Positions 14,960-34,220 of a DNA stretch of 34,396 nt are shown one piece after another; the stretch's first letter is position 1, and every line of letters begins with the position of its first letter. The stretch spans positions 1 through 34,396 of the forward strand of contig JAADEB010000059.1 of assembly GCA_013153655.1 (NCBI GenBank), read 5' to 3'. Made by a program: the position numbers and the translations under genes. The notes below the pieces were generated by a model. It was not told the origin of the DNA. It was given only the letters and a program-made list of their open reading frames with translations, and ran no database searches. The DNA is from Chlorobiota bacterium. GTDB lineage: Bacteria; Bacteroidota; Bacteroidia; Flavobacteriales; Flavobacteriaceae.

Positions 14960-15976
14960 TCACTCCGTCAATTCGCCCCGTAGTGATTGTTCGAAAAAGC
15001 GGCGGAAGGATTTATCGGACACTTTTTTGCCGAGCAGGTACATCATTTTGGTAAGGGCCGCTTCGGTGGTCAGGTCTTTCCCGGAGATGACGCCTGCTTG
15101 GGCCAAATGTTTGCCCGTGGCGTATTTTTCGGGGAAGATGCGTCCTTTGGCACATTGGGTTACATTGACCACTTTGATCCCCTTGTCAATGGCACGGCGC
15201 AACGCATCGTCCAGCCACGACAATCGCGGGGCGTTTCCGCTACCGTAGGTTTCCAAAACCACACCGCCCAAATCCGGATAATGGAAAATCACGTCGAAAT
15301 ACTCTTTTTGCATGCCCGGAAAAATTTTCAGCAAAATCACCCGCTTATCCATCCGCTCGAAAACCTGAAAAACATTTTTGGAAGGGGGCAAAATCCGGTT
15401 TTGATGAAATTCTATTTCCACCCCGGCTTCGGCCAAAGGCGGAAAATTGGGGGAAATAAAGGCGTTGAAATGTTCGGAACTGTATTTCACCGTCCGGTTG
15501 CCGCGGAAAAGTTTGTATTCGAAATAAAGACTCACTTCGGGCACCAAGGGCAGGCCTTTTTGGTACGAACCGGCTATCTCCACCGAAGTAATAATGTTTT
15601 CTTTGGCATCCGTACGCAGGTCGCCGATGGGGAGTTGCGAGCCGGTAAACACCACGGGTTTGGCCAGGTTTTCCAGCATAAAACTCAGTGCCGAAGCCGA
15701 AAAAGCCATGGTGTCGGTGCCGTGGAGAATCACAAAGCCGTCGTAATCGTCGTATTTCTCACCGATAATGCCGGCCATTTGTTGCCAATGGGCCGGCGTG
15801 ATATCCGACGAATCCACCGGATGGTCGAAGGAAACGAAATCGATGCGGTGGGGCAACAGGTCCAATTCGGGAATTTGATGACGCAATGCCGAAAAATCGA
15901 ACGGATGCAAGCTGCCGTCGGCACGACGTTGCATCCCGATGGTACCGCCCGTGTAGATCAAAAGAATATTACTCAT
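14960..15976 (-). CDS. ansA: Type I L-asparaginase
   Basis: MSNILLIYTGGTIGMQ, DGFVILHGTDTMAFSASALSFML and VVFTGSQLPIG motifs. Confidence 0.92.
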   Translation of the reverse strand: MSNILLIYTGGTIGMQRRADGSLHPFDFSALRHQIPELDLLPHRIDFVSFDHPVDSSDITPAHWQQMAGIIGEKYDDYDGFVILHGTDTMAFSASALSFMLENLAKPVVFTGSQLPIGDLRTDAKENIITSVEIAGSYQKGLPLVPEVSLYFEYKLFRGNRTVKYSSEHFNAFISPNFPPLAEAGVEIEFHQNRILPPSKNVFQVFERMDKRVILLKIFPGMQKEYFDVIFHYPDLGGVVLETYGSGNAPRLSWLDDALRRAIDKGIKVVNVTQCAKGRIFPEKYATGKHLAQAGVISGKDLTTEAALTKMMYLLGKKVSDKSFRRFFEQSLRGELTE

Positions 15977-16919
15977 ATGTTTTTCCCGAAAGTACTTTTT
16001 CCTGTAAGCCGTAGCGTGTCAGACGGATAAAATCCGTCAGGCGGCGGTTGATTTCTTCTTTGGTCAGGTTTTCCAAGCGTTTGGTGCCGAAATCTTCCAC
16101 GGTAAACGAGGCCAGGTTGGCACCGCAAATCATGGCGTTTTTGATGGCTTCCACACCGGGCTTGTCATATTCGCTCAGGTGACCGATAAATCCTCCGGCA
16201 AAGGTGTCGCCTGCTCCCGTAGGGTCCCAAACATGTTCCAAGGGCATGGCCGGAGCCGAAAAGAATCCTTCGTCGTGAAACAGCAGTGCACCGTATTCAC
16301 CCCGCTTGATGATCACATAACGCGGTCCCATGTTCCGGATGAGCCGGGCCGCCGTAACCAATGAATATTCGCCGGTCAGCTGGCGGGCTTCCTCTTCGTT
16401 GAGCATCAGCAAATCCACCCGTGCAATCACCTGCATCAAGGCATCCCGCGCATTGTCCATCCAGAAATTCATGGTGTCCAAAACCACCAGGCGGGGTGTG
16501 GCCGTAAATTGATTCAAAATTTCGGCCTGGATGCCGGGATGAAGATTGCCCAAAACCACCAAATCCGGCTCCCTGAAATCCGACGGCACCCTCGGCGAAA
16601 AATAAGCCAAAGCATTCACCTCCGTCACCAGCGTATCACGCCGGTTCATATTTTCGTAATAATAACCTTTCCAGTAAAAACTTTTGTGTTTTTCCAGCCG
16701 TTGAACCCCGCTCAAATCCACCCCGCGCCGGCGAAATTTGTCCAATAATTCCTCTCCGAAATCGTATCCCACCACCGAAACGATGCCCGTGTGGTTGCGA
16801 AAAAACGAAGCGGCCAAAGCTAAATAGGCCGCCGAACCGCCCATCATACGTCCCGAATGACCGAATGGCGTGGTAACTTCGTCGAAAGCCAATGTGCCGG
16901 CTAACAAAATCTTTTTCAT
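15969..16919 (-). CDS. PfkB/ribokinase-family sugar kinase
   Basis: MKKILLAGTLAFDEVTTPFG..GGSAAYLALAASFF and DPTGAGDTFAGGFIGHL; overlaps ansA by 8 bp. Confidence 0.9.
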   Translation of the reverse strand: MKKILLAGTLAFDEVTTPFGHSGRMMGGSAAYLALAASFFRNHTGIVSVVGYDFGEELLDKFRRRGVDLSGVQRLEKHKSFYWKGYYYENMNRRDTLVTEVNALAYFSPRVPSDFREPDLVVLGNLHPGIQAEILNQFTATPRLVVLDTMNFWMDNARDALMQVIARVDLLMLNEEEARQLTGEYSLVTAARLIRNMGPRYVIIKRGEYGALLFHDEGFFSAPAMPLEHVWDPTGAGDTFAGGFIGHLSEYDKPGVEAIKNAMICGANLASFTVEDFGTKRLENLTKEEINRRLTDFIRLTRYGLQEKVLSGKTYE

Positions 16920-17048
16920 GGGTCCGATTAAAAACCAAAAATAAAACAAGTCTTTTAAATATGAAAATACCGTTTCTTCATTCTCCATATCTCATGTACC
17001 GAAAACCTCTTGCCTGTCCGCACGAGTCCCCTCGTGTGGCATAATTTT

Positions 17049-17077
17049 ATTCCGAACAAACCGGAGGAATCTCTTTT
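17049..17077 (+). repeat. REP-like unit (ATTCCGA..GGAATCTC family), copy D
   Basis: ATTCCGAACAAACCGGAGGAATCTCTTTT. Confidence 0.5.
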
Positions 17078-17085
17078 ATACGGAT

Positions 17086-17114
17086 TTGGGATTTGGGATT
17101 TAGGATTTGGGTTT
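17086..17114. repeat. Word repeat GATTTGGGATTTAGGATTTGGG, inverse of the 14.9-kb words
   Basis: Direct read; reverse complement of the CCTAAATCCC words at 14891..14956. Confidence 0.7.
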
Positions 17115-17184
17115 CTTCGTTAAACCGTTTTCACAGAATCTCTATAAGAGTCGTATCGACCCGTGGAAAATCGTTAAATCGTTA

Positions 17185-17465
17185 CTTAACTAAATCAAAT
17201 AATTTTTAGTTCTTAATTGTTCACTATTCACTAAATCACTATTTTACTATTCACTCATAAAATTCTTAGTTCTTAGTTTTTAGTTATTAATTGTTCATTC
17301 AAAAAACTCCTTCATTCCTTCACTCTTTCACTCATCAAAATCCGTTTCCCTTGTCCCGAAAAACACATCCGTCATCCGTCTTTTCCAACTATTCAACAGA
17401 AACAGGAGATTCCTCAGTCGTAAACTCCTTCGGAATGACAAGAGTAACTATTTGATTTAGTTAAG
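17185..17465. mobile_element. Small element-like segment bounded by perfect 16-bp inverted repeats; no coding capacity
   Basis: CTTAACTAAATCAAAT (17185..17200) and ATTTGATTTAGTTAAG (17450..17465) are exact reverse complements. Confidence 0.4.
17406..17441 (-). repeat. REP-like unit (ATTCCGA..GGAATCTC family), copy B
   Basis: Minus strand TGTCATTCCGAAGGAGTTTACGACTGAGGAATCTC. Confidence 0.6.
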
Positions 17466-17489
17466 GTTAAAGTATCGATTTAACGATTC

Positions 17490-17750
17490 CACGATTTAAC
17501 GATTTAACAATTCTATTCAACTCTTCAACAATTCAACTATTCAACAAAAAAACATTTCCCGTTTCCCGAAAATCCACCGGTCATCCGTCATCCGTCATCC
17601 GTCTTTTCCAACTATTCACTAAATCGCTATCTCACTAATCCACTCAAAAAATCTTTTCAACTCTTCAACAATTCAACTTTTCAACAAAATTAACCGATTG
17701 CCCGATTCAACGTTTGCCCGATTCAACGGTTTAACAACACCCAGGTACCT
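17490..17750 (-). repeat. Composite modular intergenic repeat, inverted copy
   Basis: Read on the minus strand, 17490..17600 gives GGATGACGGATGACC, GGGAAACGGGAAATGTTTTTTTG, TTGAATAGTTGAATTGTTGAAGAGTTGAATAG, AATTGTTAAATCGTTAAATCG. This is the same word order as the 33.7-kb copy. Related words continue to ~17750. Confidence 0.75.
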
Positions 17751-17780
17751 CATTTCACCGAAGATCTTTTCTCTTATTTC

Positions 17781-17809
17781 TTTGCAAGTAAAGAAAATTT
17801 ATAACTTTG
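17781..17809 (+). promoter_or_regulatory. Bacteroidota-type promoter (TTTG-N17-TAACTTTG) for tRNA-Val
   Basis: TTTG at 17781..17784 and TAACTTTG at 17802..17809, 8 bp before the tRNA 5' end. Confidence 0.75.
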
Positions 17810-17817
17810 CACCACCC

Positions 17818-17892
17818 GGGCTCTTAGCTCAGTTGGTTCAGAGCGCTGCCTTGACAGGGCAGAGGTCGGCGGTTCGAACCCGCCAGAGCCCA
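17818..17892 (+). tRNA. tRNA-Val(GAC)
   Basis: Cloverleaf GGGCTCT..AGAGCCC; anticodon arm CTGCC-TTGACAG-GGCAG; T arm GGTTCGAACCC. Confidence 0.93.
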
Positions 17893-17899
17893 CTTTCTC

Positions 17900-19138
17900 T
17901 TATTCGTATTTAACCACCCTGGCCGGCGAAATACGTAAAATATAAGCGGCCGGCAATATCAACACCACAAGGATTATCAAAAGCACAAACACATTGAGTT
18001 TGATCCAATACAGGAAATCAATCTCCAATGGTACCCGGCGCACATAATAAGTTTCGGGATTCAGGGTCAGGAAACCGGTTTTTTGTTGAAGCAAAATAAC
18101 GGCCAGGGCCAAAACATTGCCTATTAGCAGGCCGGCGGCCATGATACGCGCCGCCAAGAGTAAAAATATACCCACAATGCTACGGTCCCGGGCGCCCAAT
18201 GTCTTCATCACCCCTATGAAGCTGGTACGTTCGATAATCAACACCAGCAACATCACCGACATGTTTAAAGCCACCACCACCATCAAAATGCCGATAATCA
18301 AATAAATATTGAAATCGAACATATCGAGCCAATCGAAAAGATAGGGATTCAACTGCTTGATGCTCAATGCACGCAGCTGCGGATCGATGCTGTGATTCAG
18401 GCGGCGGGTTTCTTCGTCGATATGGTCCCATGAAGGCGTGATGATTTCAAATCCGCCGGTAAGGGTGTCACTCCAAGCATAAAGGCGGCGTACATGGCGC
18501 AAATCGCCCCAAATGTAGGTTTTATCGAAATCCTCGAAATCGGTTTGATAAATACCCGCCACTTTGAAACGGCGCACCAAGGGCTTACCGGAATCTTTAC
18601 GAAGAAAATAGGCGCGCACCGGGCTACCCGTGTCCAAACGCAAACGCGAAGCCAAATAGGCGGATATGAGGATGGAATCGTTATAGACCGAATCCGTAAA
18701 CCGGGGAATACGGCCTTTTTTGAGGTAAGTTTTAAACACGGACCAATCGTAATCCGGTCCCACTCCTTTGAGAATGATGCCTTCGAAATCCTTACGGTTG
18801 CTCAGCAGTCCTCCGATGGTGGCATAGGGTGCGATATGCTTGATGGAAGGATAGGCGGAAGGATGCTCGTAAAAATCCTGATGCAGGGAAATGGGTTCGA
18901 GGGTAAGGCGGGAATGGTTGTTATTGTAGGGCAATACAAGAATATGTCCCGAAAAGGCGGAAATTTTCTCCCTGATTTTGGCTTGCATGCCTTTGCCCGC
19001 CGCCACCGACAGCAACATGACGAATATGCTCAAAGCCACGGTACCCACGGCCATTTTTATTATCGGACGGGATACCGTATCTTTATCCACACTCCGGCTT
19101 AACTTTTTTGCTATGAAAAATTCGAACCGCAAGGGCAA
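17900..19138 (-). CDS. LolC/FtsX-type ABC transporter permease
   Basis: FEFFIAKKLSRSVDKDTVSRPIIKMAVGTVALSIFVMLLSVAAGKGMQ.. and FIGVMKTLGARDRSIVGIFLL. Start placed at TTG (19138 or 19132) from the family N-terminus and a -7 element just upstream. Confidence 0.85.
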   Translation of the reverse strand: MPLRFEFFIAKKLSRSVDKDTVSRPIIKMAVGTVALSIFVMLLSVAAGKGMQAKIREKISAFSGHILVLPYNNNHSRLTLEPISLHQDFYEHPSAYPSIKHIAPYATIGGLLSNRKDFEGIILKGVGPDYDWSVFKTYLKKGRIPRFTDSVYNDSILISAYLASRLRLDTGSPVRAYFLRKDSGKPLVRRFKVAGIYQTDFEDFDKTYIWGDLRHVRRLYAWSDTLTGGFEIITPSWDHIDEETRRLNHSIDPQLRALSIKQLNPYLFDWLDMFDFNIYLIIGILMVVVALNMSVMLLVLIIERTSFIGVMKTLGARDRSIVGIFLLLAARIMAAGLLIGNVLALAVILLQQKTGFLTLNPETYYVRRVPLEIDFLYWIKLNVFVLLIILVVLILPAAYILRISPARVVKYE

Positions 19139-20357
19139 CCTAAATTTTTTCAAAGTTACGATTTTAGCTTTACTCGCCATTGCAACGCTTTCATGCCATT
19201 CGGGACGCGATGCCACCCATAGCAAATCCGGCCCGTCCTCCGGAGCTACCAATACCGCCGCCGTCCGGCCCGGCATTTTCCAAACGGACCGTTACCTGCC
19301 CCTATTGGAAGGCAAAAGGGTGGCCGTATGCGGCAATCAAACATCCGTGAACGATACCGCCCATTTGGTGGATTTGCTCCTGGCAAAAGGCATACGGGTG
19401 GTGAAAGTCTTCGCTCCGGAACACGGTTTCCGCGGAAGGCACGATGCGGGCGAAACCGTGGAAAACGGCATCGACACCAAAACGGGACTCCCTATCATTT
19501 CCCTCTACGGCCGGCACAAAAAACCCACCCCGGAAGATCTGCGAAATGTGGACATTATCGTTTTCGATATCCAAGATGTGGGCGCCCGGTTCTACACTTA
19601 CCTTTCCACGCTACATTATATCATGGAAGCCGCCGCCGAACAACACATTCCCGTTATCGTCCTGGACCGCCCCAATCCCCATATCGACGAGGTGGACGGA
19701 CCGGTGATGGATTCCGCGTATTTTTCTTTCGTAGGCATGCATCCCGTACCCATTCTTTACGGCATGACCATAGGCGAATATGCACGAATGATCAACGGCG
19801 AAGGCTGGCTCAAAAACGGCGTCAAAGCCAAGCTGACGGTGATTCCCATATTAAACTACACCCGCCATACGCCCTACACCTTGCCCGTAAAACCTTCTCC
19901 CAACCTGCCCAACCGGCAATCCGTCATGCTTTATCCGTCCCTTTGCCTCCTGGAACCCACCGATGTAAGTGTGGGCCGCGGCACGGATTGGCCCTTCCAG
20001 GTTTTCGGCGCACCGGCCATGTGTCCCGACGAATTCCGTTTTACGCCCAAACCCAACGAAGGCGCCAAGCATCCCAAACATCAAGGAACGGAATGCTGCG
20101 GCAGGGACCTGCGCCGCGTGGACCCTCCCAAAGGTATTAATCTTAATTGGCTTATTTATGCTTATCAAAAACATAAAAACAAGGAACATTTCTTCCGTAA
20201 ATATTTCGAACGCATCGCCGGAACCGGTTCCCTTCGCCTGCAAATCCAAAAAGGACTTTCCGCCGAACGCATAAAAGCTTCATGGCAACCCGAATTGGAA
20301 AAATTCAAGAAAATGAGGCGCCCCTACCTCCTTTATCCCGAAAATACAAACCCATAA
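19113..20357 (+). CDS. namZ: Exo-beta-N-acetylmuramidase NamZ-like (DUF1343) lipoprotein
   Basis: Lipobox MKNSNRKGNLNFFKVTILALLAIATLSCHSGRD; GKRVAVCGNQTSVNDTAHLVDLLLAKGIRVVKVFAPEHGFRG; SVGRGTDWPFQVFGAP. Confidence 0.85.
   Translation: MKNSNRKGNLNFFKVTILALLAIATLSCHSGRDATHSKSGPSSGATNTAAVRPGIFQTDRYLPLLEGKRVAVCGNQTSVNDTAHLVDLLLAKGIRVVKVFAPEHGFRGRHDAGETVENGIDTKTGLPIISLYGRHKKPTPEDLRNVDIIVFDIQDVGARFYTYLSTLHYIMEAAAEQHIPVIVLDRPNPHIDEVDGPVMDSAYFSFVGMHPVPILYGMTIGEYARMINGEGWLKNGVKAKLTVIPILNYTRHTPYTLPVKPSPNLPNRQSVMLYPSLCLLEPTDVSVGRGTDWPFQVFGAPAMCPDEFRFTPKPNEGAKHPKHQGTECCGRDLRRVDPPKGINLNWLIYAYQKHKNKEHFFRKYFERIAGTGSLRLQIQKGLSAERIKASWQPELEKFKKMRRPYLLYPENTNP
19151..19158 (-). promoter_or_regulatory. Putative -7 element TAACTTTG for the LolC-like gene
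   Basis: Minus-strand TAACTTTG 12 bp upstream of the TTG start at 19138; lies inside namZ coding sequence. Confidence 0.5.
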
Positions 20358-20494
20358 TACCGTATTTGACATCAGGCATAATTTTTGATAAGGCTTTATT
20401 TGACCCTAACTCTTAAAATAAATATTTATCCTATGTTATTTTAAATACTTGTTTTATATTTATTTCAAATTTTTTTTCAAAAAGAACGTACATA

Positions 20495-22102
20495 ATGAGA
20501 CATGAATATATTTTACATAAATTTTTCATTATTTTTAATCGAACCAATCTATCTTGCTACCGGTTGTTGTTTATATTATTACTTTTAATTTCGGGAAACG
20601 GTATAGCTTTAAGAGCACAACAAAACGGTCGCGTATATTATTCCGTCATTCCCCAACCCCGTATTGTAAAACCGGCGCCCGGAGATTTTAATATTAAAAC
20701 CCAAATTAATATTTGCCCGGATATACGAGATTCTATATTTCTGGATAGCATTAGATATATGCCCGCCTTTATCCTTTCCGATTATTTTGAAAATATACGC
20801 TACCCCGATACTTGCCCGTCGGATAATTATATAGTTATCAGAAAAGCTCCCGTGGAAGATACCGATAATTCTTCCGCTTATCATATTAAAATCCGTAGAA
20901 AAAAAATCCTTTTGGAAGCTCCCAACGAAAAAGGGATTTTCTACGGCCTACAAACTCTCGGGCAAATTATTGCCGGTCGCAGAGCCATCAACTCATATTA
21001 CATCCCCGCCGGAGATATTATCGATTGGCCCGAATACGAGTACAGAGGAATGATGCTGGACGTAGCTCGTCATTTTTTCGACGAAAATCAAATCCGCTAC
21101 CTAATCGACTACCTCGCTCGATTTAAAATAAACAAATTACATCTCCACCTGACCGATGACCAAGGTTGGCGTATCGAAATAAAATCTTATCCCGAACTTA
21201 CCCGGCGCGGTGCTCTAATTGAAGTGGATAGTACTCCGGGCGGCTATTTTACCCAAAAACAATATAGCGATCTTGTGGCATATGCCCGTAACCGTTATAT
21301 CGAAATCATCCCGGAAATCGATATGCCGGGGCACACTAATGCCGCTTTGGCCTCCTATGCTTTCCTCAATTGCGACAACAAACGACGCGAATTATATTCC
21401 GGAACCGGTGTAGGATTCAGTTCGCTTTGCACGTCCAAAGATACCGTCTATGGATTCGTAAACCGTGTGATCGGCGAATTGGCCGCCATATCCCCTTCTC
21501 CCTACATCCACATCGGCGGTGACGAAAGTAATGCCACTCCCCATAATGAATATATCCGCTTCATCGATAGTGTGGAAAAAATTGTCCGAAGTCACGGCAA
21601 AACCATGATCGGGTGGGATGAAATCGCTCGCGCTCATCCGGATAGCGGTACGGTGGTACAATTCTGGATCCATAAAAACGAAGCCGTCAAAGCCTCACAG
21701 AGCGGCCATCCCCTCATATATTCTTACGCGCCCTACATGTATTTGGATATGAAATACAACAAACGAACACCTATCGGACTTCATTGGGCGGGATATATTA
21801 ACCTCAAAAAAGCCTATACTAAAACTTTGGAACCCGTGGATAGCCTCGACATAAATAAATTTATAGGAATCGAAGCCCCCTTATGGACCGAAACCATCCG
21901 CAACATGCGTGACTTAATCTATATGACTTTCCCCAGAATATGTGCTTATGCCGAAGCGGGATGGACCCCCCGTAAAGAACGAAATTGGCGCCCTTTCCGT
22001 ATCAGATTATCTTTGATCCAAAAATTACTCCCGCCCGGATTTTATAAAGATAAATCCGTGCCCTGGCGCTATCCGGAAAAACATAAATTGCTAAGCGATT
22101 GA
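20495..22102 (+). CDS. Beta-N-acetylhexosaminidase (GH20)
   Basis: YEYRGMMLDVARHFFDENQIRYLIDYLARFKINKLHLHLTDDQGWRIEIKSYPELTRRGA and the catalytic HIGGDES motif. Confidence 0.93.
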   Translation: MRHEYILHKFFIIFNRTNLSCYRLLFILLLLISGNGIALRAQQNGRVYYSVIPQPRIVKPAPGDFNIKTQINICPDIRDSIFLDSIRYMPAFILSDYFENIRYPDTCPSDNYIVIRKAPVEDTDNSSAYHIKIRRKKILLEAPNEKGIFYGLQTLGQIIAGRRAINSYYIPAGDIIDWPEYEYRGMMLDVARHFFDENQIRYLIDYLARFKINKLHLHLTDDQGWRIEIKSYPELTRRGALIEVDSTPGGYFTQKQYSDLVAYARNRYIEIIPEIDMPGHTNAALASYAFLNCDNKRRELYSGTGVGFSSLCTSKDTVYGFVNRVIGELAAISPSPYIHIGGDESNATPHNEYIRFIDSVEKIVRSHGKTMIGWDEIARAHPDSGTVVQFWIHKNEAVKASQSGHPLIYSYAPYMYLDMKYNKRTPIGLHWAGYINLKKAYTKTLEPVDSLDINKFIGIEAPLWTETIRNMRDLIYMTFPRICAYAEAGWTPRKERNWRPFRIRLSLIQKLLPPGFYKDKSVPWRYPEKHKLLSD

Positions 22103-22435
22103 TTAGAAAAACAAGGCGTACAGACGATCAATCTCGCGCGCCAAACCCGTAGGATTCACATGCCGTGCCTGACGAATACTTTCGCGCCCGTCGAAATAAA
22201 CCAATACCGACGGAATAACGAAAATATTGAAATGACCTCGCGCCTCGGGAATCATTTGCACGTTGATTTCCAGAAAATCCATCTTGTCGAAATGCTCCTT
22301 CAACATATTTTGCAACTTGGGCGATAAGGCATCCCCCACGTTACAGGATTCATCGGAAAAAAATACCATCACGGCTTCGTGCTCCTTCAAAAAACGAAGT
22401 GCATCCTCCAACGATTCGGCAAAATGATATTGCAT
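22103..22435 (-). CDS. Thioredoxin-fold protein with single-cysteine active site
   Basis: AVMVFFSDESCNVGDALSPKLQNMLKEHFDKMDFLEINVQMIPEARGHFNIFVIPSVLVYFDG; CxxC position reads CNVG. Confidence 0.75.
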   Translation of the reverse strand: MQYHFAESLEDALRFLKEHEAVMVFFSDESCNVGDALSPKLQNMLKEHFDKMDFLEINVQMIPEARGHFNIFVIPSVLVYFDGRESIRQARHVNPTGLAREIDRLYALFF

Positions 22436-22739
22436 AAATCTATCTTTTTTTAAGGCGCAAAAATACATTATTCCATTAACCCCTCCAAAATCCCCATCAG
22501 AAAAAAACAGCCAAAAAACTTTTTCGTTCGAACATGCCCTTTAACTCAAAAAAACATGTGGATTTTCCTTTTAAATAATTATATTTCAAAAAAAATACAT
22601 CAAAAAATAATATTCTTTTTGATAAAATAAAAATTTTTTTATTGTTTTTTATCTTTTTTTATCTCATAATATTTTATCTTAAAATGACTTTTTGGCTTGA
22701 CAACAACCTCCATCATTTATATTTTTTAAGAAAAAAATC

Positions 22740-31825: not shown

Positions 31826-32689
31826 TTATAGGTTAATAAATTCGTGCAAAGTTAAAATTTTATCCAATCGAACGCCTTTGTCGGTATGTTTGACGGTGAT
31901 GATTTCGTTTTCGGGATCGTGTTCCAGGAAGAGGTAAATGCCGTTGTCGGCGGCCCAGTTGAGGAAATCGTCTTTTTCGTCCAGGGTAATCAGCGGCCGT
32001 GTGTCGTAGCCCATCACATAAGGCAGGGGAATGTGTCCCGTGGTGGGAAGCAGGTCGGCCATGAACACCAAGGTTTTGTCGCCATGGTAAAGCACCGGTA
32101 GCATTTGGCTTTCGGTATGGCCGCTGACAAAAATAAAATCCATTTTCAGATCGGTGGCTCCCAGGCGGTTGCCCGCGTCGGGAGTGGGGACGAAATGCAG
32201 CACGCCGTGTTCTTGGAGGGGTACAAAATTTTCTTTCAGGAACGAAGCGCGTTCGCGCCGGTTGGGATGTACGGCCCAATCCCAGTGTTTTTCATTGGAC
32301 CAGTAGCGTGCTCGCGGGAAGGCGGGAACGAGGTTGCCCTCTTGGTCGCGGATAACCGATCCGCCGCAATGGTCGAAATGGAGGTGGGTCATGATCACGT
32401 CGGTGATGTCGTCCGGCGTGTAGCCCAGTTCTTCCAATTTGCGGTAGAGGCCGCCGCGGTTGGTGGGTTTGTAGTAGCCGAAAAATTTGTCGCTTTGTTT
32501 GTCGCCCATACCCGTGTCGATGAGGATAAGCCGGTCGCCGTCTTCGATGAGGAGGCTCCGGGTGGCCATTTGAATGAGGTTGTCTTCGTCGGCCGGGTTG
32601 GTGCGTTGCCAGAGCGTTTTGGGTACCACGCCGAACATGGCGCCGCCGTCCAGCTTGAAGTTTTCGTGAATGAGCGAGTGGAGTTTCAT
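31826..32689 (-). CDS. MBL-fold metallo-hydrolase (lactonase-like)
   Basis: VIMTHLHFDHCGGSV and downstream HTESQMLPVLYHGDKTLVFMADLLPTTGHI. Confidence 0.9.
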   Translation of the reverse strand: MKLHSLIHENFKLDGGAMFGVVPKTLWQRTNPADEDNLIQMATRSLLIEDGDRLILIDTGMGDKQSDKFFGYYKPTNRGGLYRKLEELGYTPDDITDVIMTHLHFDHCGGSVIRDQEGNLVPAFPRARYWSNEKHWDWAVHPNRRERASFLKENFVPLQEHGVLHFVPTPDAGNRLGATDLKMDFIFVSGHTESQMLPVLYHGDKTLVFMADLLPTTGHIPLPYVMGYDTRPLITLDEKDDFLNWAADNGIYLFLEHDPENEIITVKHTDKGVRLDKILTLHEFINL

Positions 32690-33441
32690 AGGTTGAGTTT
32701 TTCCATCAACTCGTCGGTGAGTTCCAGGTTATGGTAAACGTTTTGTACGTCGTCTTCGTCTTCGAATTTTTCGGCCAGTTTCAGGATTTTTTCCGCTTGG
32801 TCCAGCGGCAGGGTTTTGGTGGTTTTGGGGATGCGTTGGAGGCCGGCGTTTTTCACTTCGATACCCAATTCTTCCAGTTTGGACGCCATGAGGCCGAAAT
32901 CTTTGTAATCGGTATAGACGGTGATGAATTCGTCGTCGGTTTCGATATCTTCGGCGCCGCCGTCGATAAGTTCCATTTCCAGCTCTTCGGGATCCATGCC
33001 GGCTGTTTTTTCTTTTTCAATGGTAAAAACGCCCTTGCGGTCGAACACATATTCCAGGGAGCCTGTTTTGCCCAGTTCGCCGCCGTTTTTGTTGAATATG
33101 GAGCGTATGATACCCACGGTGCGGTTGGTGTTGTCCGTGGCCGTTTCGATGATGAAGGCGATGCCATAGGGTCCGTAGCCTTCGAAGGTAACTTCCTGAT
33201 AGTTTTCGGCATCTTTGCCCGAAGCTTTCTTAATGGCCCGTTGGATATTATCCTTGGGCATATTCACGCCGCGCGCATTGGCGATAGCCCGCCGTAATGC
33301 GGGATTGCTTTCCGGGTCGGGACCGCCTTGGCGAACGGCAATATTGATTTCACGTAATACTTTGGTAAACATTTTGGCCCGCTTGGCGTCCTGTGCGCCT
33401 TTGCGGTGCTTGATATTGGCCCATTTACTATGTCCTGCCAT
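32686..33441 (-). CDS. yebC: YebC/PmpR family transcriptional regulator / translation factor
   Basis: MAGHSKWANIKHRKGAQDAKRAKMFTKVLREINIAVRQGGPDPESNPALRRAIANARGVNMPKDNIQRAIKKA. Confidence 0.96.
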   Translation of the reverse strand: MAGHSKWANIKHRKGAQDAKRAKMFTKVLREINIAVRQGGPDPESNPALRRAIANARGVNMPKDNIQRAIKKASGKDAENYQEVTFEGYGPYGIAFIIETATDNTNRTVGIIRSIFNKNGGELGKTGSLEYVFDRKGVFTIEKEKTAGMDPEELEMELIDGGAEDIETDDEFITVYTDYKDFGLMASKLEELGIEVKNAGLQRIPKTTKTLPLDQAEKILKLAEKFEDEDDVQNVYHNLELTDELMEKLNL

Positions 33442-33540: not shown

Positions 33541-33920
33541 GTTGAAGAGTTGAAAAGTTGAAAAGTTGAATGGATTGATTTACTTTTTGTTAAACCGTTA
33601 AATCGTGCAATCGTTAAATCGGATTGACTGATGACCGGTGACCGATGACGGATGTGTTTTTTGGGACACGGGGAACGGGAAACGGGGAATGTGTTTTTTC
33701 TGTTGAATAGTTGAAGGGTTGAAGAGTTGAATAGACTTGTTAAATCGTTAAATCGTGAAACCGTTAAATCGTTAAGTCGGTTTGACTGATGACCGGTGAC
33801 CGGTGCATTTTCGGAACAAGGGGAATGGGAAACGGGGAACATGTTTTTTCTGTTGAATAGTTGAAGGGTTGAAGAGTTGAATAGACTTGTTAAATCGTTA
33901 AATCGTTGAACCGTGCAATC
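33541..33920 (+). repeat. Composite modular intergenic repeat, ~150-bp period
   Basis: A 65-bp block TGTTTTTTCTGTTGAATAGTTGAAGGGTTGAAGAGTTGAATAGACTTGTTAAATCGTTAAATCGT is identical at 33692..33756 and 33842..33906; a degenerate copy lies at ~33541..33690. Confidence 0.88.
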
Positions 33921-34087: not shown

Positions 34088-34220
34088 GTAGAGACGCCGT
34101 ATGTGGCGTATCGTTCTATCATTATATTCATGAATCATGTAGAGACGCGATGCATCGCGTCTCTACCATATGATGATTTGATGGTCGAAACGTAGAGACG
34201 CCGGTATACGGCGTCTTTAC
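34088..34220. repeat. Three tandemly spaced GTAGAGACGC palindromic units
   Basis: 34139..34166 GTAGAGACGCGATGCATCGCGTCTCTAC is a perfect 28-bp palindrome. 34192..34220 GTAGAGACGCCGGTATACGGCGTCTTTAC has one mismatch. 34088..34120 is a degenerate unit. Confidence 0.85.

Follow-up and report, generated by a model that had tools for sequence, protein, structure and literature searches.

The spacer beside tRNA-Val is built from tandem words

The stretch of DNA analysed here (the window, 34,396 bp) is contig C158 of the Flavobacteriaceae assembly G000, which comprises 1.67 Mb in 174 contigs and is 81% complete; the relatives to which it was compared are Flavobacteriales MAGs. A PfkB-type sugar-kinase gene (minus strand, 15,969–16,988) and a tRNA-Val gene (plus strand, 17,818–17,893) border an 830-bp intergenic spacer (16,989–17,817) that is largely built from tandem 7–8-nt words. 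Read 5' to 3' on the minus strand, positions 17,479–17,603 consist of four word modules in the order D-G-T-R, as the original prediction had stated, and the strings that it quoted are present apart from trivial choices of edge. D is GGATGAC repeated about four times with a period of 7 (17,572–17,603), G is two copies of GGGAAAC followed by a T-tract (17,554–17,568), T is four copies of GTTGAA(TA/TT/GA) with a period of 8, its word being GTTGAATA (17,516–17,545), and R is four copies of GTTAAATC/GTGGAATC, also with a period of 8 (17,479–17,508). The interval 17,490–17,600 is an arbitrary slice of this one spacer, since R and T modules continue on its 5' side and D and G modules on its 3' side: preceding R (17,722–17,735) and T (17,656–17,685) modules belong to the same minus-strand chain, as do a second D (17,363–17,380) and a second G (17,337–17,350).

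The spacer also holds a W block (GGATTTG/GGATTTA, plus strand, 17,081–17,112) and other modules, among them a GGAATCTCC-type repeat joined to a AACTAAATCAAATA module in a 61-bp block (17,404–17,464) that is present exactly in contig C6 (L034). R and AACTAAATCAAAT modules form a local inverted pair at 17,169–17,488 (arms 17,169–17,204 and 17,446–17,488); it is short (19–20 nt), its arms are separated by 241 nt, and no ORF lies between them. Positions 17,050–17,080 and 17,404–17,440 contain a repeat with the end GGAATCTC(C), which has the form TGTCATTCCGA...GAGGAATCTC in other spacers; several spacers, as well as a sister species, have repeats with this end adjoining word modules.

A second composite, on the plus strand at 33,541–33,910, adjoins a YebC/PmpR family gene (minus strand, 32,686–33,441) and reads T-R-D-G-T-R-D-G-T-R, a 150-bp unit present 2.5 times (TRF score 497); the claim that the 17-kb spacer has the same module order as an array near 33.7 kb thus stands. 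Palindromic dispersed repeats of the GTAGAGACGCGATGCATCGCGTCTCTAC type lie beside it (34,090–34,220), and composite and palindromic repeats align as a joint block with L020 over about 700 bp. The contig end (34,315–34,396) is a GC-rich dispersed repeat with the ends CCGCGGAATG...CATTCCGCGG that is found exactly in several contigs.

Composites are ordered, co-oriented and dispersed in blocks

Word statistics were taken from a 633-kb sample of G000, of which 360 kb (L029–L068) was picked regardless of words and part was chosen for its R matches. A two-unit R pattern allowing up to 2 mismatches occurs 628 times in the genome versus 2 for the reversed pattern; autocorrelation finds 96 arrays of period 6 to 9 in 395 kb versus none in first-order Markov sequence; and the commonest intergenic 9-mers are the words themselves, with reversed controls mostly near zero. 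The word units are thus tandem, intergenic and present in copies beyond chance, within the 5–11-nt unit range of STRR and LSSR repeats; they are 7–8 nt long, their copies have drifted, and a module carries 2–5 of them. The 633 kb hold 71 chains of T/R/D/G blocks, in which neighbouring blocks have the same orientation 190 times and opposite orientations twice. The block order is T/R, then D, then G (D-to-G steps number 33 and G-to-D steps 2), and neither R nor T is ever directly succeeded by G. The observed D-to-G, R-to-D and T-to-R counts were reached in none of 2000 shuffles; the asymmetry is the robust part of this test, because block merging bars most equal neighbours and the shuffles allow them. 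Together with the 628 to 2 and 190 to 2 ratios, these shuffled controls bear out the original argument for a real dispersed element as opposed to chance low complexity.

The unbiased 360 kb contain 26 chains, from which we extrapolate about 120 composites per genome. Both strands carry them (R patterns: 145 forward, 123 reverse), and their words are scarce or missing in five of the eight sister species. No clear pattern was seen in their placement relative to gene direction or spacer type, apart from a weak disagreement with the strand of most genes (p = 0.02 when counted by chain and 0.16 by contig). A structured RNA was considered and set aside, since no Rfam family was found at the spacers and the folding z-scores of the composites average near 0 on both strands.

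Much of the spacer recurs elsewhere: 71% of it matches other sampled contigs at 85% identity or better, and the 12 kb coding control gave 0. An 83-bp segment (17,630–17,712) is present exactly in contig C17 (L010), and the wider segment 17,610–17,735 is 93% identical to the block there. The linkers between modules recur as well, T4+CTG preceding T/R modules 40 times in G000 versus 3 in the reversed control, and TTTCGGGA(A/C)A opening G modules 54 times versus 3, so that the original statement that word order and spacers are preserved holds. Such exact blocks in other contigs and recurring linkers show that multi-module blocks have been copied; exact 91-bp matches at contig ends, which resemble assembly overlaps, were excluded. 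As G000 has no match to a reverse transcriptase (PF00078) or to a Y1/RAYT transposase (PF01797), no mobiliser was identified. Spread by phages or plasmids was rejected because there was no phage match and a single weak 80-bp plasmid match (Aeromonas), near which no S23 annotation was found.

The same words are the arms of S23 genes in sister species

In the sister genomes G003 and G005 the words occur next to genes for the 23S rRNA intervening-sequence protein (23S_rRNA_IVP, PF05635; S23 hereafter). In G003, 14 of the 20 R matches fall in one region, among its S23 genes, and D, G, T and R are each found as arms of S23 genes in G003 or G005. The S23 loci of the genus have a common plan, a gene bracketed by two mirrored word arrays that point inward, and the word is particular to the locus or to a small group of copies: R at L174–L176, T at L164, T and D at L168, G at L172, TAGTGAA at L177, and GGATTTG at L163, the sole S23 gene found in G000. 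TTTGAC, GAGTTTT and more serve as arm words at further loci. A screen of all ORFs for inverted flanks (score of at least 40) returned 5 of 677 ORFs in G003 and 1 of 489 in G000, and the five in G003 are four S23 genes and a gene that lies between two of these. Two other ORFs of G003, near position 326776 of contig C10 and near 130294 of C2, have very strong direct flank repeats (scores 212 and 184).

Ranked against mispaired flanks, the inverted arms of 23 of the 41 S23 loci from genus and order, and of 13 of 21 elsewhere in Bacteroidota, fall within the top 5%; many of the order-level loci are without clear inverted arms. Most arms have a period of 7 or 8. The inward strand of the arms is G-rich at 29 of the 33 loci with nonzero skew (34 were tested) and carries stop codons in excess of the outward one (p = 0.001); given this excess and a unit length that is not a multiple of three, the arrays are closed in all frames on the word strand. 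The words of the window likewise have more stop codons on their word strand. Predicted arm-to-arm stems at the genus loci average –47.6 kcal/mol versus –32.6 for mispairs, a contrast that is weakened by the inclusion of loci with a common word among the mispairs. The T4+CTG linker opens one arm of four S23 cassettes in G003 and G005, and some word arrays in these two genomes lie away from any S23 gene.

The words at a given site differ between species. G003 and G005 have the nuo (complex I) operon in common, with neighbouring proteins up to 96–99% identical, and its successive gaps hold S23 cassettes (L129:3640–8850 in G003 and L144:2350–8240 in G005), so that four spacers, sites A to D, can be compared directly. 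Site A holds S23 with R arms in G003 and S23 with T arms in G005. At site B the G003 cassette, again S23 with R arms, is matched in G005 by an unrelated ORF that has T/D words on just one of its sides (L144:4818–5513, 231 aa, no Pfam match); site C has S23 with R arms in G003 versus gene-less words in G005, and at site D both genomes have S23, with G arms in G003 and T/D arms in G005. Neighbouring nuo gaps of G003 contain three near-identical R-S23-R cassettes. In the same way, the S23 gene of G000 and its G003 counterpart, which follow the same upstream gene and are 80% identical in protein sequence, have W arms and CTTTAAC arms, respectively, each word being on both arms. Orthologous sites with different words indicate rapid turnover of the words at a site, the two arms nonetheless staying matched.

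Origin of the composites

The modules are real, ordered and co-oriented, they are dispersed as blocks with an orientation that follows the local G-rich strand, and they are common to the S23 arms of the genus. How did they come to lie in spacers that have no S23 gene? The reading that we prefer, which we hold to be about evenly balanced between right and wrong, is that the composites are gene-less derivatives of the arms of S23/IVS-like elements, copied as blocks and oriented with the local G-rich-strand skew. They carry both the words and the T-tract linker of the genus S23 arms, from which they would be descended. A module consists of a short T-rich linker and 2–5 tandem 7–8-nt words, non-coding throughout; in the cassettes of the sister species a matching pair of such arms points inward at the S23 gene, and in G000 the arm modules would have multiplied without it. 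Blocks of 60–250 bp were probably copied between spacers during replication, by template switching or gene conversion through common words, and slippage probably changed the number of units. Their co-orientation could come from strand-biased copying or from strand-biased retention at the fork. Such a composite would, we expect, have no function other than as a selfish or neutral repeat.

Several observations count against this origin. The one S23 gene found in G000 (which is 81% complete) has W arms and not D, G, T or R, and the composites of G000 are one-sided, with no mirrored partner around a gene. No S23 ORF lies in the spacers of the window, the sole S23 gene of the assembly being elsewhere; no terminal inverted repeats or stem surround the composite chains, the local 19–20-nt pair (above) being the only one; and the composite does not lie inside an rRNA gene, as its spacer adjoins tRNA-Val and protein genes. 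Because they run in one direction, have no mirrored partner and have no S23 gene, we do not class the composites as IVS/S23 elements; they look like arms without the gene. The words may instead be primary and the S23 cassettes may have settled among them, since G003 and G005 also have arrays away from S23 genes.

The strongest rival is that these are plain long simple-sequence repeats of the STRR/LSSR kind, 7–8-mers that arose by slippage and were scattered by recombination, the S23 genes merely residing in repeat-rich spacers. The unit length, the intergenic placement and the drifted copies all fit it, arrays without S23 occur in all three genomes, and very similar intergenic heptamers, for which a role in rearrangement was suggested, are found in Beggiatoaceae, cyanobacteria and a few Bacteroidetes (PMC4679880). 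Slippage alone, however, would give neither a fixed order of unrelated words at about 120 sites, complete with linkers and exact 60–83-bp blocks, nor mirrored arms that are specific to S23 genes, and we consider this explanation possible but doubtful.

Descent of the composites from S23 arms can also be cast in a broader form, in which S23/four-helix-bundle genes and their private word arrays would constitute one mobile or self-maintaining class across Bacteroidota. The arms would be rewritten in concert, the S23 ring or its partners would read or write 7–8-nt words, and the arms seen here would have left the gene behind and spread by themselves, as ordered composites. This larger picture is speculative and we think it rather improbable as a whole.

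Orientation follows strand skew, and the skew does not fit a large inversion

Composite orientation was compared with the third-position GC skew of the neighbouring genes after removal of its coding-strand component. The sign of the chain agrees with this residual skew in 27 of 33 contigs (p = 0.0003), and the agreement was reached in 0 of 20,000 contig-flip permutations. We read composite orientation as probably relative to replication.

An orientation that tracks local strand skew would equally suit functional polar arrays, whose 7–8-nt words might be bound by a protein (S23 pentamers acting in trans, for example) or might act as KOPS- or Chi-like replication-polar motifs. The S23 homologue XCC0516 has been solved (2gsc, five chains) and is reported to be a homopentameric ring (PMC4990558), a form that could conceivably read about five units; a module has 2–5. 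We nonetheless find this unlikely, since the words are several and unrelated and do not make up one motif, most of the sister species examined have few or none of them (above), and neither an RNA-fold signal nor a clear bias by gene direction is present.

The original prediction further held that the two composites form a large inverted pair around the tRNA-Val-to-yebC segment, which might allow the 17–34 kb piece to flip, and this part of it fails. The composites are indeed opposite in orientation with the D-G-T-R order in common, but they are two of about 120 similar sites that use the two strands almost equally, so that opposite composites 16 kb apart are expected, and it is in another contig, not at 33.7 kb, that the 17.6-kb block has its best exact match. 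The residual skew is positive over about 1–14.5 kb, mostly negative over about 15–22.5 kb and positive again over most of 22.7–34 kb, and so has the same sign on both sides of the supposed invertible segment and over most of it. Nor is there an excess of synteny breaks: 10% of word spacers versus 8% of other spacers of at least 150 bp are syntenic with relatives (Fisher p = 1; two sister genomes, equally poor at other long spacers). An initial impression of broken synteny was thus an effect of spacer length, and because word spacers keep synteny at least as often as other long spacers do, they were rejected as rearrangement hot spots. With skew, strand use and synteny counts all against it, we reject the large inversion as very improbable. 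The piece from about 15,000 to 22,500 has mostly the opposite residual skew to both of its sides, as if inverted or acquired, and some local rearrangement is therefore possible; if anything flipped, it was this shorter piece, in which the 17-kb composite has the locally expected orientation. An artefact of metagenome-bin assembly is scarcely credible even though, in the unbiased sample, 11 of the 26 composites are found no more than 300 bp from a contig end (versus 6.7% of bases) and the 91-bp end overlaps resemble assembly-graph joins, as most composites are interior, between distinct genes, and two independent and far less fragmented sister assemblies contain these words too.

Significance and relation to known systems

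The dispersed, ordered composite is real and the inversion reading fails, but the interesting part is the connection with S23. Intergenic heptamers and S23-coding intervening sequences (IVSs) are long-standing puzzles, with agreement on neither their function nor their origin, and the evidence presented here ties the two together, as the S23 genes of many Bacteroidota are flanked by mirrored word arrays. This link suggests a source for short tandem intergenic repeats; if it is correct, escaped S23 arms would supply the origin of such repeats in bacteria. It also makes word binding by S23, concerted change of the arms and jumping of blocks open to test, and the word composites explain the fragmented assembly of such genomes. 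No paper linking intergenic heptamers to S23 IVSs was found in the open-access literature, a result that speaks weakly for novelty.

The IVSs that encode S23 within rRNA genes are bounded by terminal inverted repeats able to pair into an RNA stem, and RNase III excises them; in that of Coxiella, tandem heptamers whose number varies between strains lie just ahead of the S23 start codon (PMC4990558). The S23 loci of the genus resemble the IVSs of Leptospira, Coxiella burnetii and others (PF05635, TIGR02436) in having a gene between inverted arms. Unlike IVSs, they lie between protein genes, including several gaps of the nuo operon, and not in rRNA, and their arms are arrays of a locus-private word; the composite in the window differs further in having neither an S23 gene nor a mirrored partner.

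REP/RAYT elements and MITEs are, like the composites, high-copy dispersed intergenic repeats that break assemblies, but unlike REP/RAYT the words are not palindromic and G000 has no Y1/RAYT transposase. One S23 protein of the genus weakly matches the Avd protein of diversity-generating retroelements (bAvd, PF22296), from which the present system differs in that G000 lacks a reverse transcriptase match.

The STRR of heterocystous cyanobacteria and the LSSR of Mrazek are related classes of short repeats. Intergenic direct repeats of a heptamer (TAACTGA) have been described in Beggiatoaceae, cyanobacteria and some Bacteroidetes (PMC4679880). They closely resemble our composites, being many-copy intergenic tandem 7-mers that also occur in some Bacteroidetes, and mixed heptamer assemblages were noted there. 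What sets the present repeats apart from the heptamer, STRR and LSSR classes is that several different 7- and 8-mers are joined here by linkers into an ordered, co-oriented composite, and that its words mirror S23 genes.
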